The notes below the pieces were generated by a model. That model was not told the origin of the DNA, searched no databases, and was given only the letters and a program-made list of their open reading frames with translations. A program made the position numbers and the translations under genes. From Chlorobiales bacterium (GTDB taxonomy: Bacteria; Bacteroidota; Chlorobiia; Chlorobiales; JACMJS01), in assembly GCA_014380515.1 (NCBI GenBank), contig JACMJS010000306.1:1-37827 (forward strand): a stretch of 37,827 bases of DNA, written 5' to 3'. How positions within the stretch are numbered: position 1 is the first letter of the stretch; every line of letters begins with the position of its first letter. Shown here piece by piece: positions 1,150-23,256 of this stretch.

Positions 1150-3033
1150 TCAAATTGATGCGGGTAGTTCGATGGTAAAAGTGCAGCCTTTGTCTTTGCC
1201 TTCGGAGGCAACACGGACGTTGCCGCCATGCAATTCGACCAGACGCTTGACGATGGCTAGCCCCAAGCCCGTCGAGGTTTCTTTGCCCGTCGGTCTTGCC
1301 GAAAGGCGTTGAAATTTTCCGAAGGCTTTTTTCAAATCGTCTTCCGTCATGCCTTGTCCCTCGTCCTTGATCTCGATGCACACGGTTTCTTCGGCGTCTT
1401 CATCGGCACTGCGGCTGACGGCGATCCAAATCGTTTGACCTTCGAGCGAGTATTTCATCGCATTGCTGATGAGATTATCAAGCACTTCCATCATACGATC
1501 TTCATCGGCCCAAGCCATACAACCAAGTCCCGTGCGGAGTTCCAAGGTTTGTTGTTTCTGATCAGCACGCGGCTGATAACTGTCAACCATGAGCGAAGTG
1601 AGCTGGGCAAGATCGATCCGGCGACGGTTGAGCGCGATTTTTCCGCTTTCAATCGCCGTTGTGTTGAGCAGTTGCTTGATGATGTGCAGCATTTGCCGCG
1701 AGAGATCGCCGATCAGGTTGACGTAAATTTCCTTGCGACCTTCGTTGCTTTCTTTGCTCGACAGCATATCGGAAAAGTTGAGGATCGCCGTGAGCGGGTT
1801 TCGTAAATCATGCGCGGCAATGGAGAGCAGTTCGGATTTCATCATGTTCGCTTCCGTCAATTCGGCGTTGGCTTTGACGAGCGCGACGTTTTTCAGCCGG
1901 TAGACTTCCGCCTCGATGCGTTGGCGTTCGGCTTCGCTTTCGGCGCGTTCGAGATCGAAGCGGCGTTGCATCTTGCGGGCGTTTTCGGCGGATTCTTCCG
2001 TGAGCACTTCGGCGCGGAGCGCAAAGAATTTTTTGTAATGCTCAAACGCTTTCTCGAAGTTCTGCGCGGCGGCGTAGGCTTCGGCGAGGGCTTCATGAAT
2101 TTTAAATTCAAGCGGCTTGATAAAATGTGCCGATGCCAAATTCAGGGCGGTAGTTAGCTGCTGCACCGCCGCCTTGAATTTTTTCCGTTGCATGTCAATG
2201 GCCGCAAGGTTTTGCAAGCAGACTGCCTCACTGTTGGCGTCGCCATGCCGGGCGGCTTTGGTGCAGGCGCGATGGAAATAGTCCGCCGCCTTTTCAAGTT
2301 CACCCAATTGAAAATACGTCTCACCGATGTTGCACAGTGATGAGGCCTCGCTTTGATCCGCTCCGGCATCGCGCCGCAAGGCCAGACTATCTTCGAAACA
2401 GGCCAAGGCATTGCGGTAGTTTTTCAAATCGAAATGAATCACGCCGATGCTGTTGAGCGACGTGGCAATGGCGGCTTTGTCGTTCAAGGTTTCGCGGATC
2501 GCAAGGGCCTGCTCGTAATATTTCATCGCGTCTTGCGGCTGACCGAGTTGGCGGTAAATGATGCCGATGTTGTTGAGGACTGCGGCTTCGCGTGCCTCTT
2601 CATTGTGCGATTTCAGCAGGCGGTAGCTTTCGGTGTAATTACCCAGCGCGGTAGAGAGATCGCCCAGTTGCCAGTAGATAAGGCCGATGGTGTTGAGCGA
2701 TTTCGCCCGTCCGACGTCATCGCCCAGTTCTTCGTAGAGCCGGATCGATTCGCGCGTCGCAAAGGTAGCGATGTCGTAGTCGGCTTTGCTCCAGCAGCAG
2801 AAGCCGATGAGGTAAAGACTTTCGGCGAGTTGATCGGTGCACTCCGAGGCTTCGGCCAGCCCGCGGGCGCGTTGAGCGAAGGTGAGAGCCTGAACCGCGT
2901 CGCCCGCGGAAACCATCGTTGCAAGTTGATTGAATATCCGCGCCCGCTCGCACGCATCGGTGAGCGTTTCCTGTTTTCGAAGCAGCGTTTGCACTTGCTC
3001 GGAAAAGGCGGCGGGTTGGGATGTATTCGTCAA
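1150..3033 (-). CDS. TPR-repeat sensor histidine kinase (cytosolic)
   Basis: A 627-residue protein. Residues about 60-340 are tandem TPR motifs of 40 residues (repeated patterns such as SLNSIGVIHFDLKNYRNAL). A coiled coil covers about 345-400. HisKA contains AAHDLRNP with the probable phospho-acceptor His408. HATPase_c has the N box (DNLISNAMKYS, from residue 519), the G1 box DEGQGM (557-562) and the G2 box TGLGLA (588-593). No signal peptide or membrane helix is seen, so the input is probably cytosolic and read by the TPRs. The start is a TTG: an in-frame TAA lies five codons upstream and the next ATG would cost 39 residues. It lies 93 bp downstream of the propeller kinase on the same strand and has a closely related catalytic tail. 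No response regulator is encoded nearby. Confidence 0.9.
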   Translation of the reverse strand: MTNTSQPAAFSEQVQTLLRKQETLTDACERARIFNQLATMVSAGDAVQALTFAQRARGLAEASECTDQLAESLYLIGFCCWSKADYDIATFATRESIRLYEELGDDVGRAKSLNTIGLIYWQLGDLSTALGNYTESYRLLKSHNEEAREAAVLNNIGIIYRQLGQPQDAMKYYEQALAIRETLNDKAAIATSLNSIGVIHFDLKNYRNALACFEDSLALRRDAGADQSEASSLCNIGETYFQLGELEKAADYFHRACTKAARHGDANSEAVCLQNLAAIDMQRKKFKAAVQQLTTALNLASAHFIKPLEFKIHEALAEAYAAAQNFEKAFEHYKKFFALRAEVLTEESAENARKMQRRFDLERAESEAERQRIEAEVYRLKNVALVKANAELTEANMMKSELLSIAAHDLRNPLTAILNFSDMLSSKESNEGRKEIYVNLIGDLSRQMLHIIKQLLNTTAIESGKIALNRRRIDLAQLTSLMVDSYQPRADQKQQTLELRTGLGCMAWADEDRMMEVLDNLISNAMKYSLEGQTIWIAVSRSADEDAEETVCIEIKDEGQGMTEDDLKKAFGKFQRLSARPTGKETSTGLGLAIVKRLVELHGGNVRVASEGKDKGCTFTIELPASI

Positions 3034-3126
3034 AGCGGTTTGTACTTACGTGCGAAAATAAAATATGCGCGAGTAAAATGTACGAGAGCGAAACCTGCGG
3101 GAGTGAACCGCCCGCTTGAGAGCGAT

Positions 3127-6100
3127 TTAGTTTCTGATGACGGTCGCATTGATAACGGCGCCGTTTTCACTTTGCTTGTTTTCACTTTGCACCGGCAACC
3201 GGACGATAAAGCGACTTCCCTGTCCTTGTCCGCCGGATTCGGCACTGACGCTGCCGCCGTGCAGTTCGATCAGTTGTTTAACGATGGCAAGTCCTAAGCC
3301 CGTCGACGATTCGCCGCCCGTCGGTTTCGCCGAAAGCCGTTGAAAGCGTCCGAAGAGTTTGGCTTTGTCCATTTCCGTCAGGCCTTGTCCTTCATCGCGC
3401 ACTTCGATCACCACCGACTTCTCGCCGTGACTGCCGTTACCATCCGCCGCGACTCCCGTTGCGGCCATATCAGGAGCGGCTTTGCGGACGGCGACGAAAA
3501 TCTTTTTGCCGAGCGGCGAATACTTAATCGCGTTGCCGATGAGATTATCAACCACTTCGTGCAGCCGTTCTTCGTCGCCGGTTACGGTGCAGTCCGGCTC
3601 AAGATGCGCCACAATTTCTTGACCTTTGCGCTCGGCCTGCGGTTGATTGAACGTGATGACGCTGAGTACCAACCGGCTTATATCGACAGCGGATTTATGC
3701 AGTTCAAGATTTCCCGTATCCAACGCGGCGGTGCGAAGCAGGCTTTCAATCAGATCGACCATGCGGCGCGAGGCATCAAAGATGTGGCGAGCATATGTGG
3801 CCACGAGCGAATCTTCCGGCACGCTTTCATTGGTGAGCGAGGCGAAGCCCATCACGGTTTGCAACGGATTTTTCAGATCGTGCGCCGCCATGGAGAGCAA
3901 CTCTGACTTCAGCGCGCCCGCCGATTGCGCCGATTCGCGTTGCCGCTCGGCCTCGCGCCGCTGATGATCGGCACTGGTCTTTTGGCGTTCGGCATCTTCG
4001 CGTGCGGCCTGCGCAGCCGTTAGTGCCGATTCGGTTTCGGCTTGTTGAAGACGCAAGTCTTTGGTACGCAGTTCAACCTCAGCGAGCAGTTCCGCTTCGC
4101 GCTCGCTGACTTGCTTCATCCGAAACCGATATAAGCCGACCCCGCCGAACACGAGCAACATAGCCGCGCCCAAATAAAATGTGGCCGTTTGATAGAAGTA
4201 TGGTTCGAGTTCGATTCGCAACGACGCTCCCGATTCATTCCACACGCCGTCGCTGTTGCACGCCATCACGCGGAAAGTGTAAATGCCCGGCGGCAAGTTG
4301 GTGTAGAAGGCTTCGCGCCGTTTGCCGCCATCGATCCACTTTTTATCGAAGCCGTCGAGCTTGTATCTGAACCGTACTTTCTCCGGCGCATAGAGCGACA
4401 GGCCCGCGTATTGCACTTCAAACCGCTCCGTGCCCGGCTTCAACTTCGCCGCACCGGAAGCGAGCAAACTTTGTCCTTCTGCTCGGACGTCTTCGATGAC
4501 GATGAGCGGTACGACGTCGTTGCGCAGGATTTGACGCGGGTTGATGGCCACGAGACCTTTCGTCGTCGAGAACCACAGCGATCCGTCTTTGCGGCGGAAG
4601 GACGAAGGCTGCGAGACCGCGCTGCATTCGGAACTCTTCATGCCGTCCGACATGCCATACTGGATGGGCGTGAGCGCGGGAATTTTCTTCTCTAAAAAAT
4701 CCGAGATGTTTTTTTTGTTCAGGCGCGTGATGCCTTTGTTGCCGGAGAGCCAAAGCCAGCCGTCGTCATCTTCTAAAATGTTGAACACCGTGTCTTCGAA
4801 AAGACCTTCGGTCGACGTCAGGCTTTCGAACTTACCCTGTTTCATCCGCGAAAGTCCGCCGCCCGACGTGCCGATCCAAAGCGTGCCGCTTGTATCTTCA
4901 TAAACACAAAATACAATGTCGCTCGCAAGGCCGTCTTGCTTGGTGCATGGCGTAAATTTTCCGTGCTCGAACTTCACGAGGCCGCAACCGTCCATCCCGA
5001 TCCAGACCGCGCCGCTGCGACTGCGGAAAACGGTAAGCACCAAATTGCTCGGCAGACCGTTTTTGTCGGTGTAGGTCGTGATCGTTTCATCCGCCGCAAC
5101 GTGGCAAAGCCCGCCGCCGACGATGCCGATCCACATACCGCCCGCACCGTCGCTGCACATTGAAGAAATACGGTTGCCCGTCAATCCGCCCGTTGGCCCT
5201 TTGCTCTCCGTAAAGACTTTTACCTTGCCCTCTTTGATGCGCGCCGCGCCGCGGCTCGTGCCGACCCACACCGCGCCGCTCGTGTCCTGAGCGAGTGATT
5301 GCACAAGTTTATCCGGCAAGCCGTTCGCCTCCGAAAAAAACGTGATGCCGCCGTCCGGCGCGATGCGGTTCAAACCGCCGTCCGCCGTGCCGATCCAGAG
5401 CGCGCTGTCCCGCGTTTCGATGAGCGTGCGGGTGAAGTCGCTTGAGAGACCTTCTTTGGAGGTGTGGGTTACAAACTTGCCCATCTTCAAACGGCCAAGG
5501 CCGCCGCCCGCCGTGCCGATCCAGAGCGAACCTTCGCGGTCTTCGTGAATAGCGCGGACGAAATCGTTGGGCAATCCTTGTTTGGCCGAATACCGTTCAA
5601 TCTTTCCGTTGCGCCACCGCGCCAGACCGCCGCCATATGTGCCGATCCACAGCGTTTGGTAGCGGTCTTCGAAGAGCGACAGGATAATCGGATTCGGAAG
5701 CCCGTCGGAGACCTTGTAGGTTTTAAAAACACCGTCTTTGTATTGACATAGGCCGTCGCCGTTCGTGCCGATCCAGAGTGTGCCGTCGCGGGCGGTGCAG
5801 AGCGAGAAGATAAAGTTCGAGGGCAGACTGTCTTTCGTGGTGTAGGTCGTAAACTTATCCTCTTTGAAGCGCGAGAGGCCGCCGCCGTTCGTGCCGATCC
5901 AGATGGCACCGTCGGCACTTTGACGAATCGCGCGGACGACGTTGTGCGCGAGGCCTTGCTCGGTGGTGTAGTTTGTAAATTTTCCCGCTTTGAATTTTGA
6001 AAGGCCACGGTTCGTGCCGATCCAGATGTTACCCTCGCGGTCTTCGGTAATACTTTTGATAAAGTCGTTGGCCAGACCTTCCTTGACGGTGTAAGTGGTA

Positions 6101-6633
6101 AACTTTCCCGCCTTGTAAGCCGTAACGCCGCCGCCGTTCGTACCGATCCAGAGCGTGCTATCGCGCGATTCAGCGAGGGCGAGCACGCTGCTGTTTTTCA
6201 ATTCGCGTACCGAGGCTTTGTCGAACAGTTTAAACTTGATGCCATCGAAGCGCGCGAGGCCTTCATATGTGCCGAGCCAGATATAGCCGTCGCGCGTGGC
6301 GAGGATTGACATGACGGTATTTTGCGGCAGGCCGTGTTCGGTACGCCAGTTGTCCTGACTGTATTGCGTGATGGCTTTGTCAGGATCGAGGCCGATGGGC
6401 GCACCGACGGCGGGCGTTGTTGAGAAATTATCAGGCAGCGATTGCGTTGCGGGCACGGGCGGCACAGGCGATACCGCTTGGCCGGATGCGATGCGCATGT
6501 TGACCAGCGTCATCATCACGCACATCAACCATGCGACCCGCCATGCGGCACGGCGCGGCGCGACGCGGAACCGCGGTGTGATTTTTTGTTTACTGTGCAG
6601 ATACTTCAACATGCGGACGGCGAACCCTATCAA
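3127..6633 (-). CDS. Membrane sensor kinase with 14 propeller repeats and a Y_Y_Y domain
   Basis: A 1168-residue protein. A signal-anchor-like segment lies near residues 30-50. About 95-700 holds 14 Reg_prop repeats, recognised by the recurring 'LWIGTxGGGLxRF' strand, which is enough for two seven-bladed propellers. A Y_Y_Y domain follows (about 735-808), then a membrane helix (about 815-837), a coiled coil, HisKA (AAHDLKNP, probable His918) and HATPase_c (N box DNLIGNAIKYSP from 1029, G1 DEGQGL, G2 TGLGLA). The propellers are expected to be periplasmic and bind a ligand. This is the sensor half of a hybrid two-component system of the type used for glycan sensing in Bacteroides, but it ends after the ATPase, without receiver or AraC domains. 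The start may be the ATG at 6633 or the one at 6612. Confidence 0.92.
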   Translation of the reverse strand: MIGFAVRMLKYLHSKQKITPRFRVAPRRAAWRVAWLMCVMMTLVNMRIASGQAVSPVPPVPATQSLPDNFSTTPAVGAPIGLDPDKAITQYSQDNWRTEHGLPQNTVMSILATRDGYIWLGTYEGLARFDGIKFKLFDKASVRELKNSSVLALAESRDSTLWIGTNGGGVTAYKAGKFTTYTVKEGLANDFIKSITEDREGNIWIGTNRGLSKFKAGKFTNYTTEQGLAHNVVRAIRQSADGAIWIGTNGGGLSRFKEDKFTTYTTKDSLPSNFIFSLCTARDGTLWIGTNGDGLCQYKDGVFKTYKVSDGLPNPIILSLFEDRYQTLWIGTYGGGLARWRNGKIERYSAKQGLPNDFVRAIHEDREGSLWIGTAGGGLGRLKMGKFVTHTSKEGLSSDFTRTLIETRDSALWIGTADGGLNRIAPDGGITFFSEANGLPDKLVQSLAQDTSGAVWVGTSRGAARIKEGKVKVFTESKGPTGGLTGNRISSMCSDGAGGMWIGIVGGGLCHVAADETITTYTDKNGLPSNLVLTVFRSRSGAVWIGMDGCGLVKFEHGKFTPCTKQDGLASDIVFCVYEDTSGTLWIGTSGGGLSRMKQGKFESLTSTEGLFEDTVFNILEDDDGWLWLSGNKGITRLNKKNISDFLEKKIPALTPIQYGMSDGMKSSECSAVSQPSSFRRKDGSLWFSTTKGLVAINPRQILRNDVVPLIVIEDVRAEGQSLLASGAAKLKPGTERFEVQYAGLSLYAPEKVRFRYKLDGFDKKWIDGGKRREAFYTNLPPGIYTFRVMACNSDGVWNESGASLRIELEPYFYQTATFYLGAAMLLVFGGVGLYRFRMKQVSEREAELLAEVELRTKDLRLQQAETESALTAAQAAREDAERQKTSADHQRREAERQRESAQSAGALKSELLSMAAHDLKNPLQTVMGFASLTNESVPEDSLVATYARHIFDASRRMVDLIESLLRTAALDTGNLELHKSAVDISRLVLSVITFNQPQAERKGQEIVAHLEPDCTVTGDEERLHEVVDNLIGNAIKYSPLGKKIFVAVRKAAPDMAATGVAADGNGSHGEKSVVIEVRDEGQGLTEMDKAKLFGRFQRLSAKPTGGESSTGLGLAIVKQLIELHGGSVSAESGGQGQGSRFIVRLPVQSENKQSENGAVINATVIRN

Positions 6634-16380: not shown

Positions 16381-17145
16381 TCAGCGTGAGCGCGGTGAAC
16401 TGCGTTTTTCTTCGGTGTTCGTGTTACCGTTGTTGCCACTGTTTGTAGTCGTGCCGCTCGTGCTATCGCGCGAACGGGTTTCGCCGCCGCCCGATGTGCC
16501 GGTTGAAGATTCTTTTCGCGTTGTGCTTGAGCCGGTCGAACCGGATGATTCTGCCGGTCGTGCGGCAGGCGTTGCCGTGGTTGTGCTCGGCGTGCTTACG
16601 GGTGCCGGACTGTAGACGCCGGTGGCTGCGGGGTTTCTAAACGCGCCCATCCCGCGCCGAAAACTTTGCCGTGCGCGAACGCTGCCGTTCGCAGAGCCAG
16701 CGGAAGATAAATCAGGACCGCCGCCCGCTGCTGCACTGTTTGCACCGGTAGCGAGGCTGTAACCATCAAACCACCATGGATAGTAGTAGTAATAATCATA
16801 GTCCGAACCGGCGTAGTTTGAAAGTCCCTTGAACTCCGTCGCGGTTGCCGTGGCCACGCGGTCGTAACTCGTCGTGCGTTTTTCCGCCGCGCGGGCGTAG
16901 CCTTCGTATTTGTTCGCCATTTTCTCGTGGCAACTTTTGCAATCGGAGACGGGCGAGACTTCTTCGAACACAAATTTGCCCGTCGGTTCGTCGCGTACCT
17001 CGACCTCAGGATGATCGAGCACCGTGAAACTGCCGCAGCCGGATACAGCCACCGAGACGGCAAAGATGGCCGCCGATCCGATCATCACCGACAAATGTTT
17101 GAAGCCATATATCAATTTATTTTTCATATCAACTTTACGTTTCAT
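16381..17145 (-). CDS. Lipoprotein with a single CxxCH motif and a Ser/Thr-rich tail
   Basis: A 254-residue protein. The lipobox VAVSGC puts the lipidated residue at Cys37. Cys69-Lys-Ser-Cys72-His73 in SPVSDCKSCHEKM is a haem-c attachment motif. A Met75 or a later Met/His could be the sixth ligand, but the c-type domain is very short, so haem binding is unproven. A Tyr/Trp run (DYDYYYYYPWWFDGY, residues 116-130) follows, then about 110 residues of low complexity rich in S, T, G and R. I do not recognise the family. The start is 17145 or the ATG at 17127, which gives an equally good signal peptide. It begins 15 bp after the Gly/Tyr-rich lipoprotein gene, so the two are almost surely one operon. 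Confidence 0.75.
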   Translation of the reverse strand: MKRKVDMKNKLIYGFKHLSVMIGSAAIFAVSVAVSGCGSFTVLDHPEVEVRDEPTGKFVFEEVSPVSDCKSCHEKMANKYEGYARAAEKRTTSYDRVATATATEFKGLSNYAGSDYDYYYYYPWWFDGYSLATGANSAAAGGGPDLSSAGSANGSVRARQSFRRGMGAFRNPAATGVYSPAPVSTPSTTTATPAARPAESSGSTGSSTTRKESSTGTSGGGETRSRDSTSGTTTNSGNNGNTNTEEKRSSPRSR

Positions 17146-17160
17146 AAGTGCTTCGAGAGA

Positions 17161-18144
17161 TTAACGCCCGCGTGTTGATCCGCCGCGGTTGCCGCCGTTC
17201 GAATTTCCTGAACCGCTTGAACTTGAAGAACTGCTCCGGTTGCCTCCGCCGCGATTCCCGCCCTGACCGCCTTCGCTGCGGCGCGGGGCGTTATATACCG
17301 GCGCGCTGCGTTGCGATTCACGCTGCGGACGCGCTTCGTAAGTTGACCGTTCATTGCTCTGGCGTCCTGCCTCGATAGGCCGCCGTTCTCTCTGGGCGGG
17401 TCGCTGATACGACGCGGGTGAGCCTTCGCCGCGCGTGCGTGAACCTGATACACCGGCGGCATTGTTGGTCGTGCGGCTGCGGGAATAAATTACCGGTTGG
17501 TCTGTTTCTTCATACACACTGCGGCTTCGCGTGCCGACGATGCCGCCGCGCGTCGCCCCGAATGTGCGAGGTCTGAATAATCCCGACCTGGCCGGCGTGC
17601 TGCCCCAGCCACCATAACCACCGTATCCGTAACCGCCATAGCCGCTGCCGTAGTAAGGCCAGCCATAACCGCTGTATCCATAGTAGCTGTTGCCGTAAGG
17701 TCCATATCCGTTGTTCCAGTTGTCCCAATAACCGTATCCGCCGTTGTAGCCCCAACGATCCCAGCGGTTAAATCCGAAACCATAACTGCCGAAACCGAAA
17801 CCAAGTGAAAGTCCGGGCTGACCGAAGAACGGATCGTAGTCGCCGCCTGAATTATCCGGCGTGTCGAAGTACTGCGCGTAAGGCTGATCGTAGTACTCAT
17901 CAACGATCACGGTCTCGCCCGCAACGGTTGTGTCAATGGCGACTGGCGACGGGCGGCGTTTTGAATACTTGGGTTTGGATTCCTCGGTGTATTCATCGTC
18001 CCAACTATCACGGTAGCGGCGCGGACTTTCATCGACCATTTGCGTGTAGCAACCTGAAAGCACGGTTGCTCCGACAAGCACGGTGAAAATCATTGGCAAC
18101 AGCGGTGCGACTTTTCGAATCATTGTTTTGAGCGTCGTCTTCAT
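17161..18144 (-). CDS. Gly/Tyr/Trp-rich surface lipoprotein, function unknown
   Basis: A 327-residue protein. A signal peptide ends in ATVLSGC (Cys32). Residues about 33-85 are acidic and charged. About 108-180 are extremely rich in G, Y, W and N (runs such as GYGGYGYGGYGGWG). The rest is Arg/Ser/Gln-rich and ends in a Ser7 run and GGNRGGSTRGR. The middle resembles adhesive or fibre-forming glycine/tyrosine-rich proteins only in composition; no domain is recognised. It is probably anchored in the outer membrane. It is encoded 15 bp upstream of the CxxCH lipoprotein, which has a similar architecture (lipobox, short folded part, aromatic patch, disordered basic tail), so the two may act together. 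Confidence 0.72.
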   Translation of the reverse strand: MKTTLKTMIRKVAPLLPMIFTVLVGATVLSGCYTQMVDESPRRYRDSWDDEYTEESKPKYSKRRPSPVAIDTTVAGETVIVDEYYDQPYAQYFDTPDNSGGDYDPFFGQPGLSLGFGFGSYGFGFNRWDRWGYNGGYGYWDNWNNGYGPYGNSYYGYSGYGWPYYGSGYGGYGYGGYGGWGSTPARSGLFRPRTFGATRGGIVGTRSRSVYEETDQPVIYSRSRTTNNAAGVSGSRTRGEGSPASYQRPAQRERRPIEAGRQSNERSTYEARPQRESQRSAPVYNAPRRSEGGQGGNRGGGNRSSSSSSSGSGNSNGGNRGGSTRGR

Positions 18145-18324: not shown

Positions 18325-19092
18325 TCAAAAAGTGTTGATGTATTCCAAGCGAACGCTGCGCGTGGCCGCACCAATGTCTTTGAAGTTGTTGGAAAGGTTG
18401 GAAAGATTGAGTTCGAGCGTAATGCCGCTGCCCACCGACCATCTTAATCCTGCATCCCAGAAGCCGCGTCCCGTGCCGAGCGCGGAAGGGGAATTGTCAT
18501 TGAACGCAAAATCGTACTGCGAGTAGATTGTAACCTGCGGCCCGATGGTTTTTTCAAGGCCGACGTAAAAATTCGCATCACGATCATCGCGCGTTTCCAA
18601 ACTATAATTCACGCCGCCGTGCAGCGTCAGAAATCCCAAGAACTCCAAGTTCTTGCTTGCCGCCGCAAAGAAGCCCGCCGACTTGCGCTCATACCGCCCG
18701 AGCGAATCGATGTAGTTGCCGCGACCTTGGGAATCAAACCCAAGTGTGATGGCGGGAAAAAATAAATCTTCGGGAATGATGCGGTAGCGCACCATCACGC
18801 CCGGCAGTTTGTTCCAGACGGGATCGCCGGAGCCGACCACATTGCCCGCGCCGTAACTGATGCCGAACGTCAAGTCGTTCGATATACCGACGCTCATCGC
18901 GGCCAGCACGCCGCCGCCGGAAAAAATCAACCCTTCGATGGCATAACTGCCCCGCTCCAGCGTTCCCGCCGACGGCAGATTAAAAATGTATCTCGCTTCC
19001 TGCGTTGCCGCCGAGCCTGCCGATCCTTGAGCGTAAATGACGTTTGTAATGAACAGCAATCCCAGAAACAATGCGGCTATTTTTTTCATCAA
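18325..19092 (-). CDS. Probable outer-membrane beta-barrel protein
   Basis: A 255-residue protein with a clear signal peptide (KKIAALFLGLLFITNVIYAQ). The mature part is made of alternating short strands such as DLTFGISYGAGNVVG, GVMVRYRIIP, FLTLHGGVNYSLE and QVTIYSQYDFAFND, and it ends in VRLEYINTF with a terminal Phe, as in BAM-inserted barrels. The length suits an 8- to 12-stranded barrel. No family name can be given with confidence. The next gene downstream on the strand is the Gly/Tyr-rich lipoprotein, 180 bp away. Confidence 0.68.
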   Translation of the reverse strand: MMKKIAALFLGLLFITNVIYAQGSAGSAATQEARYIFNLPSAGTLERGSYAIEGLIFSGGGVLAAMSVGISNDLTFGISYGAGNVVGSGDPVWNKLPGVMVRYRIIPEDLFFPAITLGFDSQGRGNYIDSLGRYERKSAGFFAAASKNLEFLGFLTLHGGVNYSLETRDDRDANFYVGLEKTIGPQVTIYSQYDFAFNDNSPSALGTGRGFWDAGLRWSVGSGITLELNLSNLSNNFKDIGAATRSVRLEYINTF

Positions 19093-19911: not shown

Positions 19912-20769
19912 TCAAAGTTGAATGAAAGCATTTGTGTAAGTGTCGTCGGGAAAGATTTCTATTGAGTTGATGATGGCCGTTGAGCGGCGTACCGAACCGC
20001 TGTTGATGAAATGCACGCCTTGTACGTCGTATTCTTCGGCGCGGTGAAAGTGTCCGTGCAGCGCGATCTTCGTGTTCATTTTTTTCAGCGTGGCAAGGTA
20101 TGCGTCCTTTTCCAAAAGCTCCATCGCCCAAACAAACGCCCTGTCGACGGGCGTTTGCGGCTCATAGATTTTATAAGCATGATGACACAGCGCAACGACG
20201 AACTTTCCCTGAAGCACTTCCAGCACTTCCGGCTGCTCAATCGCCTGCCGCTCCGACGCATGAACATAGCCGCGTGCGCCCGTCGGGTTGAGCCGCAGCG
20301 ACCACTCCAAAACACTGTTGAACGAAACCATCGCAATCCCCGCTTTGCCGCCGCCGAGCACTTTGACGAACGGAAAGTATCCGGCCAGTTCCGCGTCTTC
20401 AGTGATCGTTTCGCGGAAGATGTCGCAGAAGGCGTGCAATTTTTGTGCGGCGGCGAGCGCGACCCGCTGCTGCATCGCGGTGGCAATCACGCTGAGGGCT
20501 TTGTTGCCTTTCGTGTCGTACTTGCCGAAGATGTCGTGATTGCCCGGAATGATCGTCGTCTGTTCCCAATTTAAAATGCCGTTTTGCTTGAGCACTTCGC
20601 GCACCTTGCGCAGATCGTCGGTGTTGGCGACATCAACGACGTCGCCCGTGATGACGAGGTGATCGTAGTTATGTTCAAGAATGCGTTTGATGAGCCGGTC
20701 AAATTCCCAGATGCTGCCGGGGCGGGCGGGCGTATCGATGTGAATGTCGGAGATATGTGCAATTTTCAC
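19912..20769 (-). CDS. Calcineurin-like metallophosphoesterase
   Basis: A 285-residue protein carrying all the metal-site motifs of the family: ISDIHID (6-12), TGDVVD (41-46), GNHD (76-79), CHH (195-197) and GHFHR (239-243). Such enzymes split phosphodiesters or phosphomonoesters with two metal ions; the CpdA/Icc branch acts on cyclic nucleotides, but the substrate cannot be inferred here. No signal peptide is seen. The start is taken as the GTG at 20769, where the conserved VKIAHISDIH begins. An ATG 29 codons upstream (20856) is possible but adds a non-conserved stretch. It is followed 11 bp later by the Fic gene. Confidence 0.85.
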   Translation of the reverse strand: MKIAHISDIHIDTPARPGSIWEFDRLIKRILEHNYDHLVITGDVVDVANTDDLRKVREVLKQNGILNWEQTTIIPGNHDIFGKYDTKGNKALSVIATAMQQRVALAAAQKLHAFCDIFRETITEDAELAGYFPFVKVLGGGKAGIAMVSFNSVLEWSLRLNPTGARGYVHASERQAIEQPEVLEVLQGKFVVALCHHAYKIYEPQTPVDRAFVWAMELLEKDAYLATLKKMNTKIALHGHFHRAEEYDVQGVHFINSGSVRRSTAIINSIEIFPDDTYTNAFIQL

Positions 20770-21111
20770 AGGGCAATCGGAATAAAGTGTTTGCTGTCGG
20801 ATGGCGGTCAATATGGCTATAAGACCGCTGCTGATGCGGCTCAAGCGGCTTTCCAAACTCGGAGCGCAACTTACGACATTTTGAAAAGTGAAAAAAATTT
20901 CGTTCCCTTGCAGTCGTTCCGTGCAACGGCGCCATCAACATCGCTATTAAATTGACCTTGATTTGTTGCCTGATCGCGGATTGAACTGCTCACAACCAAC
21001 GCTTCAAAGCCAACGCTTCCGATATATCTTCCCCGCCGCTGTTTTCGTAGCCTTCGGCGAGCATCAAACCCGCGTTTGAAACTCGCTCTAATTCAACCGT
21101 CAAAAAACTAT
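20770..21111. other. Divergent intergenic region, phosphoesterase/glgP
   Basis: This 342-bp gap should hold two promoters. I see a 10-bp direct repeat, CCAACGCTTC, at 20996-21005 and 21010-21019, and just after it TATCTTCC at 21025-21032, a two-mismatch relative of the TAnnTTTG box followed by a C/G-rich stretch like the one after the nuoM box. Nothing else stands out. Confidence 0.35.
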
Positions 21112-23256
21112 ATGCCCGAAGTCAAATCTGTGTCGCGCTCGAAAAAATCCGCGATGAGTATCGCTGATCTCATTACCGGCCTGCGGTCGCTTTCCAAAAA
21201 TTTGTGGTGGACATGGAACAGCAGTGCCCGCGATGTGCTCGCTGAACTTTCGCCGCTCTATTGGTCGCGGTTCAATCACAACGCGGTTGAAATCATGGCG
21301 CGCGTCTCCGAGCCGGAACTCACCGCACGCCTCAGCGATCCCGATTATGCCGAGCGCGTTGCCGATGTGCTTGCCACGTTCAATAAATATCTCGGCGAGA
21401 AAAAAACATGGGCGTCGGAACACGCGAAGGAATTGACGAAGCAACCCATTGCTTACTTCAGCGCGGAGTTCGGCTTGCACGAAAGTTTGCAAATCTACTC
21501 CGGCGGTCTCGGCGTGCTCGCGGGCGATCATATCAAATCGGCCAGCGACTTGGGATTGAATTTTGCGGGCGTCAGCCTGTTTTACCGCGAAGGTTATTTT
21601 CAGCAACGGCTTTCGGCGGATGGCTGGCAACAGGAAGTTTACCCGCTCTTCCGTCCCGATTCACTCGCCATGTCGCAAGTGATCGGCGAAGACGGCAAGC
21701 CGGTGACGGTGAGCGTCGAACTTGGTCAGAGCGTCGTGCATGTTCAGGCGTGGGCGGTGAAAGTCGGGCGGGCGACGCTCTACTTGCTCGATACAAACAT
21801 CGAACAAAACGAACCGCACTACCGCGACATCACGAGCAAAGTCTACGGCGGCGACGCCACCACGCGCATCAACCAAGAAATCATTCTGGGCATCGGCGGC
21901 GTAAAATTTTTACACGCACTCGGCCTGAAACCGGCAGTGTATCATATGAACGAAGGTCATTCGGGGTTTCTCACATTGGAACTTGTGCGTGAGCAAGTTG
22001 TAGCGGGCAAGTCGCTTGATGATGCCAAAGCCTTTGTAAAAGCGGAATGTATTTTTACAACCCACACGCCCGTACCCGCCGGACACGACCGCTTCTCGCC
22101 CGATCTGATGGGTTACTCGCTCGGCAAATATGCGGAATCATTGAAGATCGATTTCAACACGTTCATGGCTCTTGGCCGCGAGCATCCGAACGATCCACAA
22201 GAGCATTTTACGATGACGGTGCTGTGTCTCAACCTTTCGCGGAGTGCGAACGGCGTTTCGGAATTGCATGGCGAAGTCTCGCGGGACATGTGGCGCGGCC
22301 TCTATGGAAATGTTGAAGCCAAAGACGTGCCCATCGGATACATCACCAACGGCATTCACACGTTCGGGTGGCTGGTGCAAAAGACCGAACGCTTCTGGCT
22401 CTCGCGGACGCAGAACGACCGTGAATTTTTCCGCAACCCCGAACGGTTGAAAGAAATTTTAGATGAAGTTTCGGACGAGGAACTCTGGTCGCTCCGGTAC
22501 CGGCTCAAGCGCGACTTGATGGAATTTGCGTACGGACGCTTGAGCGCGCAGTACGAGCGTAGCGGTCAGATGCTCGGCGAGTCGTTTGGCAATGCGCTGT
22601 CGCCCGACGTCCTCACGATTGGTTTCGCGCGGCGGTTTGCGACATACAAGCGTGCGCCGCTCGTGTTCAGCGACATCGACCGCATCACGCGCATCATCAG
22701 CAACAGTGAAAAACCCGTTCAGTTTTTCTTTGCGGGCAAAGCGCACCCGCGCGATGATGCCGGAAAAAAATACATTCAGCAGATCGTCAGTCTTACACGG
22801 CAGTCGCAGTTTTTGGGCAAGGTCGTCTTTATCGAGAACTATGATATGAACGTCGCGCGGCATTTGATTTCGGGCGTGGATGTGTGGCTTAACAACCCGA
22901 TGCGTCCGCTCGAAGCGAGCGGCACCTCGGGACAAAAAGTGATTGCGCACGGCGGACTCAACTGCAGCATCTTGGACGGCTGGTGGCGCGAAGCCTACAA
23001 CGGCGAGAATGGTTGGTCAATCGGCAAAGATGAAAATCATGCCGATCAAAATTATCAGGATTCGCTCGATGCCAATTCGCTCTACGATATCTTAGAGCAA
23101 GACCTCGTACCGACGTATTACAACCGCACGGAAAGCGGCATCCCGACCGCGTGGCTCAAAAAAGTACGCAACTCAATGCTTTCGCTGATGCCGGTCTATA
23201 ACACCCACCGTATGGTTTCGGATTACGTGCTGAAGTATTACAAGCAGAAAGTCTGA
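21112..23256 (+). CDS. glgP: Alpha-glucan (glycogen/maltodextrin) phosphorylase, GT35
   Basis: A 714-residue protein of the short bacterial and archaeal type. The N-terminal DUF3417-like part has LSKNLWWTWN. Core motifs follow: AYFSAEFGLHESLQIYSGGLGVLAGDH, YHMNEGHSGF and FTTHTPVPAGHDRF. The PLP site reads ASGTSGQKVIAHGG with Lys609 as the likely cofactor-binding residue (the usual M before K is Q), then LNCSILDGWW and NGENGWSIG. It phosphorolyses alpha-1,4-glucan ends to glucose-1-phosphate. The ATG at 21112 is preferred; a TTG 12 codons upstream adds MKLALIQPSKNY, which looks unrelated. No other glycogen gene is nearby. A terminator lies between it and the convergent SDR gene. Confidence 0.92.
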   Translation: MPEVKSVSRSKKSAMSIADLITGLRSLSKNLWWTWNSSARDVLAELSPLYWSRFNHNAVEIMARVSEPELTARLSDPDYAERVADVLATFNKYLGEKKTWASEHAKELTKQPIAYFSAEFGLHESLQIYSGGLGVLAGDHIKSASDLGLNFAGVSLFYREGYFQQRLSADGWQQEVYPLFRPDSLAMSQVIGEDGKPVTVSVELGQSVVHVQAWAVKVGRATLYLLDTNIEQNEPHYRDITSKVYGGDATTRINQEIILGIGGVKFLHALGLKPAVYHMNEGHSGFLTLELVREQVVAGKSLDDAKAFVKAECIFTTHTPVPAGHDRFSPDLMGYSLGKYAESLKIDFNTFMALGREHPNDPQEHFTMTVLCLNLSRSANGVSELHGEVSRDMWRGLYGNVEAKDVPIGYITNGIHTFGWLVQKTERFWLSRTQNDREFFRNPERLKEILDEVSDEELWSLRYRLKRDLMEFAYGRLSAQYERSGQMLGESFGNALSPDVLTIGFARRFATYKRAPLVFSDIDRITRIISNSEKPVQFFFAGKAHPRDDAGKKYIQQIVSLTRQSQFLGKVVFIENYDMNVARHLISGVDVWLNNPMRPLEASGTSGQKVIAHGGLNCSILDGWWREAYNGENGWSIGKDENHADQNYQDSLDANSLYDILEQDLVPTYYNRTESGIPTAWLKKVRNSMLSLMPVYNTHRMVSDYVLKYYKQKV

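Follow-up and report, generated by a model that had tools for sequence, protein, structure and literature searches.

A conserved gene set for two predicted outer-membrane barrels and a basic-tailed lipoprotein, with an optional CxxCH lipoprotein, in Chlorobiales and other Bacteroidota

Introduction

Two adjacent genes for lipoproteins with disordered tails, one of which carries a CxxCH motif, raise the question of whether the two form a unit of their own or belong to a larger assembly, and what a haem-type motif would do there. They were examined in a window of 37,827 nucleotides (the whole stretch of DNA that was analysed) from a member of the Chlorobiales. O, GY, C and F denote the four genes concerned, G numbers denote genomes (G000 is that of the window), L numbers loci and f numbers families. 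No description of this operon was found in the open-access literature searched.

Organisation of the locus

The original prediction described an operon of two lipoproteins of one plan, the second with a haem-c-type motif, and these points were upheld: the two ORFs lie 15 bp apart on the minus strand (Table 1). The FadL-like porin that it placed after the pair was confirmed as F, 74 bp beyond C. The prediction had, however, overlooked a fourth gene, O, upstream of GY, and the window holds a minus-strand set in the order O, GY, C, F. Long basic Ser/Gly/Arg tails had been proposed for both lipoproteins; this describes GY, whose acidic stretch has a net charge of -7, whereas the tail of C is basic but rich in Ser and Thr (20% S, 19% T, 12% G, 11% R) rather than in Gly and Arg. 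Similarly, GY is Gly/Tyr-rich in the window, as stated, while the patches of its relatives are, by eye, rich in Trp, Tyr and Pro.

Table 1. Positions of the four genes and their parts in the window
Feature	Position	Strand	Description or basis
O	18325-19092	-	Predicted 12-14-strand outer-membrane barrel, FapF-like fold, kin to the N-terminal half of YjbH
GY lipoprotein, 327 aa	17161-18144	-	Lipobox C32 (GCYTQ), acidic stretch, Gly/Tyr-rich patch, basic Ser/Gly/Arg tail
GY, codon of presumed lipidated Cys32	18049-18051	-	Sequence (lipobox VLSGC)
GY, Gly/Tyr-rich patch, residues 101-181	17602-17844	-	35% Gly, 21% Tyr
GY, basic tail, residues 182-327	17164-17601	-	Net +16, end STRGR
C, CxxCH lipoprotein, 254 aa	16381-17145	-	Sequence, homologue searches
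C, codon of presumed lipidated Cys37	17035-17037	-	Sequence (AVSGC); invariant in alignment A1
C, His45 of HPEVEV	17011-17013	-	Candidate for the sixth haem ligand, 24 residues ahead of CxxCH
C, CKSCH, residues 69-73	16927-16941	-	C, C and H invariant in 10/10 Chlorobiales copies
C, aromatic patch YYYYYPWW, residues 118-125	16771-16794	-	WW invariant in 24/24 rows of alignment A8
C, Ser/Thr/Gly/Arg tail, residues 158-254	16384-16674	-	Net +7, end SPRSR
F, FadL/PorV-superfamily outer-membrane barrel, 495 aa	14819-16306	-	PF03349 above cut-off

Distribution across the class and the phylum

A first search of the class for C gave matches in 11 of 61 genomes, own included, and in 10 after removal of a false match in G023 (by eye an FtsW-like membrane protein in a cell-division cluster). 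With a core profile (A4), C was found in 10 of 98 class genomes, again counting our own: the single genome of the own family, all nine of f2, neither of the two of f3 and none of the 86 of f4. The named records for six of these copies are metagenome-assembled genomes of Chlorobiales, Thermochlorobacteriaceae and Chloroherpetonaceae, e.g. Candidatus Thermochlorobacter aerophilum. CxxCH, the His of HPxVEV and WW were invariant in all 10 copies. GY lay upstream of C in 10 of 10 genomes and F downstream in nine, including G017, in which it is cut by the contig end; in G009, F is located away from GY and C. O was present in 12 of the 98 genomes (own family, 9/9 of f2, 2/2 of f3, 0/86 of f4), standing apart from the other set genes in f2 except in G007, and operon-type F (E < 1e-60) in the own genome, 9/9 of f2 and 1/2 of f3. 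In f4, only 7 of 86 genomes gave FadL-like matches, all weak (E 5e-5 to 6e-10); since the O and C profiles found nothing there, f4 appears to be without the set. One f3 genome, G005, has O-GY-F without a CxxCH gene between them (L064:3745-6201), a natural control within the order.

When A4 was run over 394 genomes of the phylum, two further matches were obtained. That in G345 was dropped because of in-frame stops (55-aa open frame); the real one, in G298, lies in the same order O-GY-C-F, with a third small lipoprotein between C and F. This additional protein (L061:5785-6114) has 109 aa, a basic end and an RDNDGGR motif like those of its neighbours. A profile including G298 matched 14 of 294 genomes of that class, G298 counted. 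In the 13 other neighbourhoods, GY and F adjoined the match in 13 of 13 and O in 12, the O of G295 being on a separate contig. In the proteins of G551 and G295 (f33), CxxCH and HP are missing, but the CYT start is retained, as are the PWW patch and the tail. Thus, C is not a chance ORF, as it recurs in 10 of 98 class genomes and in another class, adjacent to GY in those examined.

The O gene is more widespread; profile A6 found it in about a quarter of the phylum genomes sampled (92 of 394). The neighbourhoods of 79 of these were fetched, the remaining 13 coming from genomes already in the set, and 103 genomes were tabulated (78 O loci and 25 already in the set). GY counterparts were present in 71 and GY together with F in 69. 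The latter comprised 35 without a middle gene, 25 with a CxxCH gene, five with a WW-type middle gene lacking CxxCH and four with another small middle lipoprotein. Two further rows had GY and the CxxCH gene without F entered (one of them G017, in which F starts at the contig end), two had F without GY, and 30 had none of these genes. The 30 set-less rows consisted of 20 weaker O matches in f17, f24, f31, f48 and f49, together with six from f33, three from f10 and one from f3, some of the last three groups being cut by contig ends; loci so cut (e.g. G145, G215) were scored as without the set. Three candidate middle ORFs were excluded: one of 130 aa in G292, first counted and later dropped as spurious, one of 109 aa in G280 that looked out of frame, and one in G105, in which a run of N lies between O and F.

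The original prediction had proposed that the pair be sought in related genomes, and GY and CxxCH genes were indeed found together in 27, i.e. 27 CxxCH copies in seven families (f1, f2, f10, f29, f46, f59, f60). As a unit, however, the pair did not stand: GY is associated with the barrels O and F, and in 44 of its 71 genomes it had no CxxCH partner. The CxxCH share of operons is inflated, since 11 of the 103 genomes entered solely through the CxxCH search; in the O-anchored sample alone (n = 92, counted by hand), 60 had GY and 17 CxxCH. Part of the conservation of GY is by construction, since in the 78 scripted loci it was recognised by the letters CYT and solely between O and F. Absences in the class and phylum searches are soft because these were samples of larger groups with limited candidates scored per genome.

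Gene spacing and inheritance

In all seven genomes of f60 (L083, L085, L087, L089-L092), the GY-C and the C-F junction are each a 4-bp overlap, as expected for co-translated partners. Wide junctions also occur: 101 bp between GY and C in G013, 230 bp between C and F in G007, and 325 bp, with the extra gene within, between C and F in G298. A tree of 71 F proteins, from which G105 was left out because its F is split, mostly follows families; f60, f8, f29, f5, f22, f37, f46 and f59 each fall on one branch side, whereas f10, f33 and f2 do not. These observations point to an old set of outer-membrane genes that has mostly been inherited vertically. At least 10 changes on this tree are required to explain where the CxxCH gene is present, and repeated loss of an old optional subunit C fits best, although the change count cannot separate gain from loss. 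The resulting patchy presence of C across families provides natural controls.

Tails and anchors of the lipoproteins

At least two R/K residues among the last six were found in 68 of 71 GY proteins (21.4 expected, maximum 35 in 1000 shufflings of the last 80 residues) and in 38 of 39 middle lipoproteins (9.4 expected, maximum 18; the later-dropped G292 is among the 39), the C of G356 being the one without a basic tail. The corresponding counts were 11 of 71 for F and 5 of 94 for O. By eye, an R-[DN]-x-D-G-G-R-like motif follows the aromatic patch in several GY and C proteins and in the third lipoprotein of G298. GY gave no Pfam or NCBIfam match at E ≤ 1. Two acidic residues near the lipidated Cys are taken as a sign of surface exposure in the portion of PMC12578637 cited; within six residues of this Cys, the window proteins have one in GY (C-YTQMVD) and none in C (C-GSFTVL).

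Barrel O

The model of O (255 aa, strands from residue 49; pLDDT 72.7, pTM 0.70) has the fold of FapF, the amyloid secretion barrel of Pseudomonas. The best 15 Foldseek rows were all FapF (best E 3.8e-7, TM-scores about 0.5), as were the best three in VIA-align (5o65_B, Z 18.9, 207 aligned, 3.5 Å), with the porin KdgM next (Z 17.2). Unlike FapF, O has no N-terminal periplasmic coiled coil, for which there is no room before the barrel. It is conceivable, though we consider it doubtful, that O is a FapF-like polypeptide exporter, with GY and C as lipid-anchored, low-complexity matrix or amyloid-like substrates for a coat or for adhesion and F anchoring or modifying them. The leading position of FapF in both structure searches speaks for this, as do the passage of unfolded amyloid subunits through FapF (in the part of PMC5557850 cited) and the Gly/Tyr-rich GY with its basic tail; a Gly-rich protein is common to both operons. 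The missing coiled coil speaks against it, and KdgM follows so closely that a shared barrel fold may be all there is to the likeness.

The YjbH family (PF06082) was matched at E ≤ 1 by 12 of 15 O proteins (best 5.3e-6), over profile positions 10-118 in the three placed members, and the O of G298 (L061) reached 26.0 bits against a gathering threshold of 24; the O of the window itself gave no match to PF06082. The YjbH-half match and the FapF fold agree with sections of PMC9603273, where YjbH and GfcD are reported to match FapF in their N-terminal halves. By analogy with these exopolysaccharide proteins, the operon might help to export a surface polysaccharide or to attach it, its basic tails holding the anionic polymer. 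The YjbH matches of the O family would suit such a role, as would the make-up of gfc and yjb operons, which, like the present one, join YjbH-type barrels to a lipoprotein (excerpts of PMC8592465). We nevertheless regard it as unlikely, because only the N-terminal part of YjbH was matched, whereas the PNAG-porin-like half is placed at its C-terminus (same sections of PMC9603273), a second barrel half that O is without, and because the window O shows no YjbH match. The gfc genes, as described in those excerpts of PMC8592465, include no FadL-type barrel and no CxxCH lipoprotein.

Barrel F

F scored 70.7 bits with PF03349 (FadL/Toluene_X; cut-off 29.7) and is 45-52% identical to seven relatives that adjoin C. 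It stayed below the cut-offs of the PorV/PorQ model NF033709 (PorV_fam; 52.9 bits against 90) and the BamG model NF053685 (52.6-66.4 bits against 250). A profile search of the PDB gave E. coli FadL (3.3e-8) and 9hjm_F (0.0075), and the F profile matched the PorV chain 6h3i_F over its first 66 residues (2.6e-5), the C-terminal part being FadL-like. F is like PorV, an outer-membrane protein of type IX secretion, in its N-terminal match and unlike it in its below-cut-off score and FadL-like C-terminal part.

BamG-BamH consists of a FadL-like barrel on which a surface lipoprotein is docked by its lipidated N-terminus (passages of PMC12611786 and PMC12578637). F shares with it the barrel family and, presumably, a docked lipoprotein partner, and does score with the BamG model (66 bits), so that F and the lipoproteins could be thought a lineage-specific extra BAM module replacing BamG and BamH. 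This seems very unlikely, as a better match to BamG lies elsewhere in the same genome (G000:C154, 217.5 bits), as is likewise the case in 8 of 10 other Chlorobiales genomes searched (238-283 bits); F is a separate paralogue, and its lipoproteins are small, C being poorly ordered in the model. F was accordingly rejected as the BamG of this genome, although the C154 match is itself below the cut-off of 250. As a separate observation, NF053685 gave 217-283 bits in 9 of 11 Chlorobiales genomes, five of them over 250 (G000:C154:6256-7332, i.e. L062, and L025-L032), and no match in the two f4 genomes searched. Passages of PMC12611786 state that Chlorobiota lack BamG and BamH; the Chlorobiota sample used there may have been of the f4 type only.

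The CxxCH module of C

The CxxCH, whose non-conservation the original prediction had named as evidence against it, is kept in most homologues; the other refuting outcome it had named, a pair never seen together elsewhere, was not obtained either. Counting back from the first Cys of CxxCH, all copies but that of G248 (26 of 27) have a His at -22, -23 or -24; when the stretch was shuffled 2000 times, this held for 3.9 copies on average and for 11 at most, a contrast that is not a probability because the copies are related. More telling is G168, which lacks HP and has a longer linker but still places a His at -23. HP near the Cys occurs in 25 of 27 CxxCH copies (24 by script and G004, whose automatic start was wrong) and in 0 of 5 WW-type middle lipoproteins without CxxCH; as all five are from f33, this joint absence amounts to few events. 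No Met or His at a fixed downstream place was common to all 27 copies.

The original prediction had also called for a check of cytochrome c maturation genes. The cytochrome-c-assembly family PF01578 was found in 70 of 70 genomes searched, with four matches in G000, two of which lie together on C201 and have CcmF-like and CcmC-like lengths; which of the matches serve c-type cytochromes was judged from length alone. Haem attachment is thus possible. PF01578 was rejected as a discriminating trait, since it is equally present where C is absent.

The window C combines an export signal (lipobox) with CKSCH, as a c-type cytochrome would. It gave no match to cytochrome families at E ≤ 0.1, and no cytochrome family reached its cut-off among 24 C members scanned at E ≤ 0.1; single members matched Paired_CXXCH_1 (0.0047), Cytochrom_CIII and similar families weakly, and the cytochrome c7 model (CytC7) gave 14.7 bits against a cut-off of 120. 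The best hit in a PDB sequence search with C was an unrelated-looking lyase (E 0.027). The AlphaFold model of C is poor (mean pLDDT 56, tail mostly <50) and, at low overall confidence, shows a hairpin at residues 48-61 and the CxxCH on a short helix.

The motif, the export signal, the assembly genes and the paired His together suggest that C is best read as a putative single-haem, bis-histidine c-type subunit. Another reading, to which we would give roughly one chance in a few, is that zinc rather than haem is bound by the H...CxxCH module, or that the latter is a CxxC redox pair, in effect a small structural metal site giving stiffness to the N-terminal region of C. The candidate ligands, H-x(21-23)-C-x2-C-H, are four in number, conserved, and jointly absent in f33; a metal knob would be of use here, the remainder of C being short and, in the model, poorly ordered, and no cytochrome family was matched at threshold. 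On the other hand, G248 keeps CxxCH without the upstream His, and in cells that produce c-type cytochromes the CxxCH of an exported protein normally serves to attach haem.

A possible outer-membrane assembly

Three features argue for a single assembly: a gene order maintained between classes, the 4-bp overlaps seen in f60, and inheritance that is mostly vertical. We tentatively propose, at somewhat below even odds, that the four genes encode one outer-membrane assembly in which C is an optional haem or redox subunit; the complex, its surface exposure, the haem and its task are all part of what is proposed here. Against a single assembly count the separate O of most f2 genomes, the separate F of G009 and the wide junctions; the few acidic residues near the lipidated Cys count against surface exposure, the tail-less C of G356 against a general role of basic tails, and G248, together with the absence of a cytochrome match at cut-off, against the haem. 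The likelihoods attached to this and the other explanations are not mutually exclusive. In the proposed assembly, F (FadL/PorV-like) and O (FapF/YjbH-like) would be the two barrels, and GY and C would be anchored through their N-terminal Cys and docked on a barrel, as BamH is on BamG. Their long, disordered basic tails would lie at the cell surface, possibly after passage through a barrel, and could hold the assembly or a surface polymer together via aromatic and Arg contacts. As an optional subunit, C would bring in a redox or haem module inserted into it: one haem would be bound covalently at CxxCH, and its axial ligands would be the His of that motif and the one some 23 residues before it. 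C might serve in redox or haem sensing or as a short-range electron relay.

If tails pass through a barrel, the arrangement would be reminiscent of RcsF-OMP complexes or of FapF export. In RcsF-OMP (part of PMC9907809), a lipoprotein with a disordered segment likewise has barrel partners; this is an analogy only, and the disordered part of RcsF is N-terminal. We also considered the bolder scheme in which the FapF-like barrel threads the tails out, the FadL/PorV-like barrel holds them, and the optional mono-haem lipoprotein, with its Tyr/Trp patch near the haem, lends the surface redox activity, acting as a sensor or relay for peroxide, haem or electrons; this is improbable as a whole. At this locus, barrels of two known types share an operon with lipoproteins that have a basic end in common, and if C carries haem, it would be the single haem subunit of a FadL-type complex, and a removable one.

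Neighbouring genes in the window

Gene names of the neighbours are by-eye assignments. Next to O, ORFs at 19912-20856 and 21076-23256 resemble a metallophosphoesterase and a glycogen phosphorylase, and counterparts of both occupy the same place in G007 and G005. At 1150-6633, two large tandem ORFs resemble sensor kinases; in the second, the sensor region is long and repetitive.
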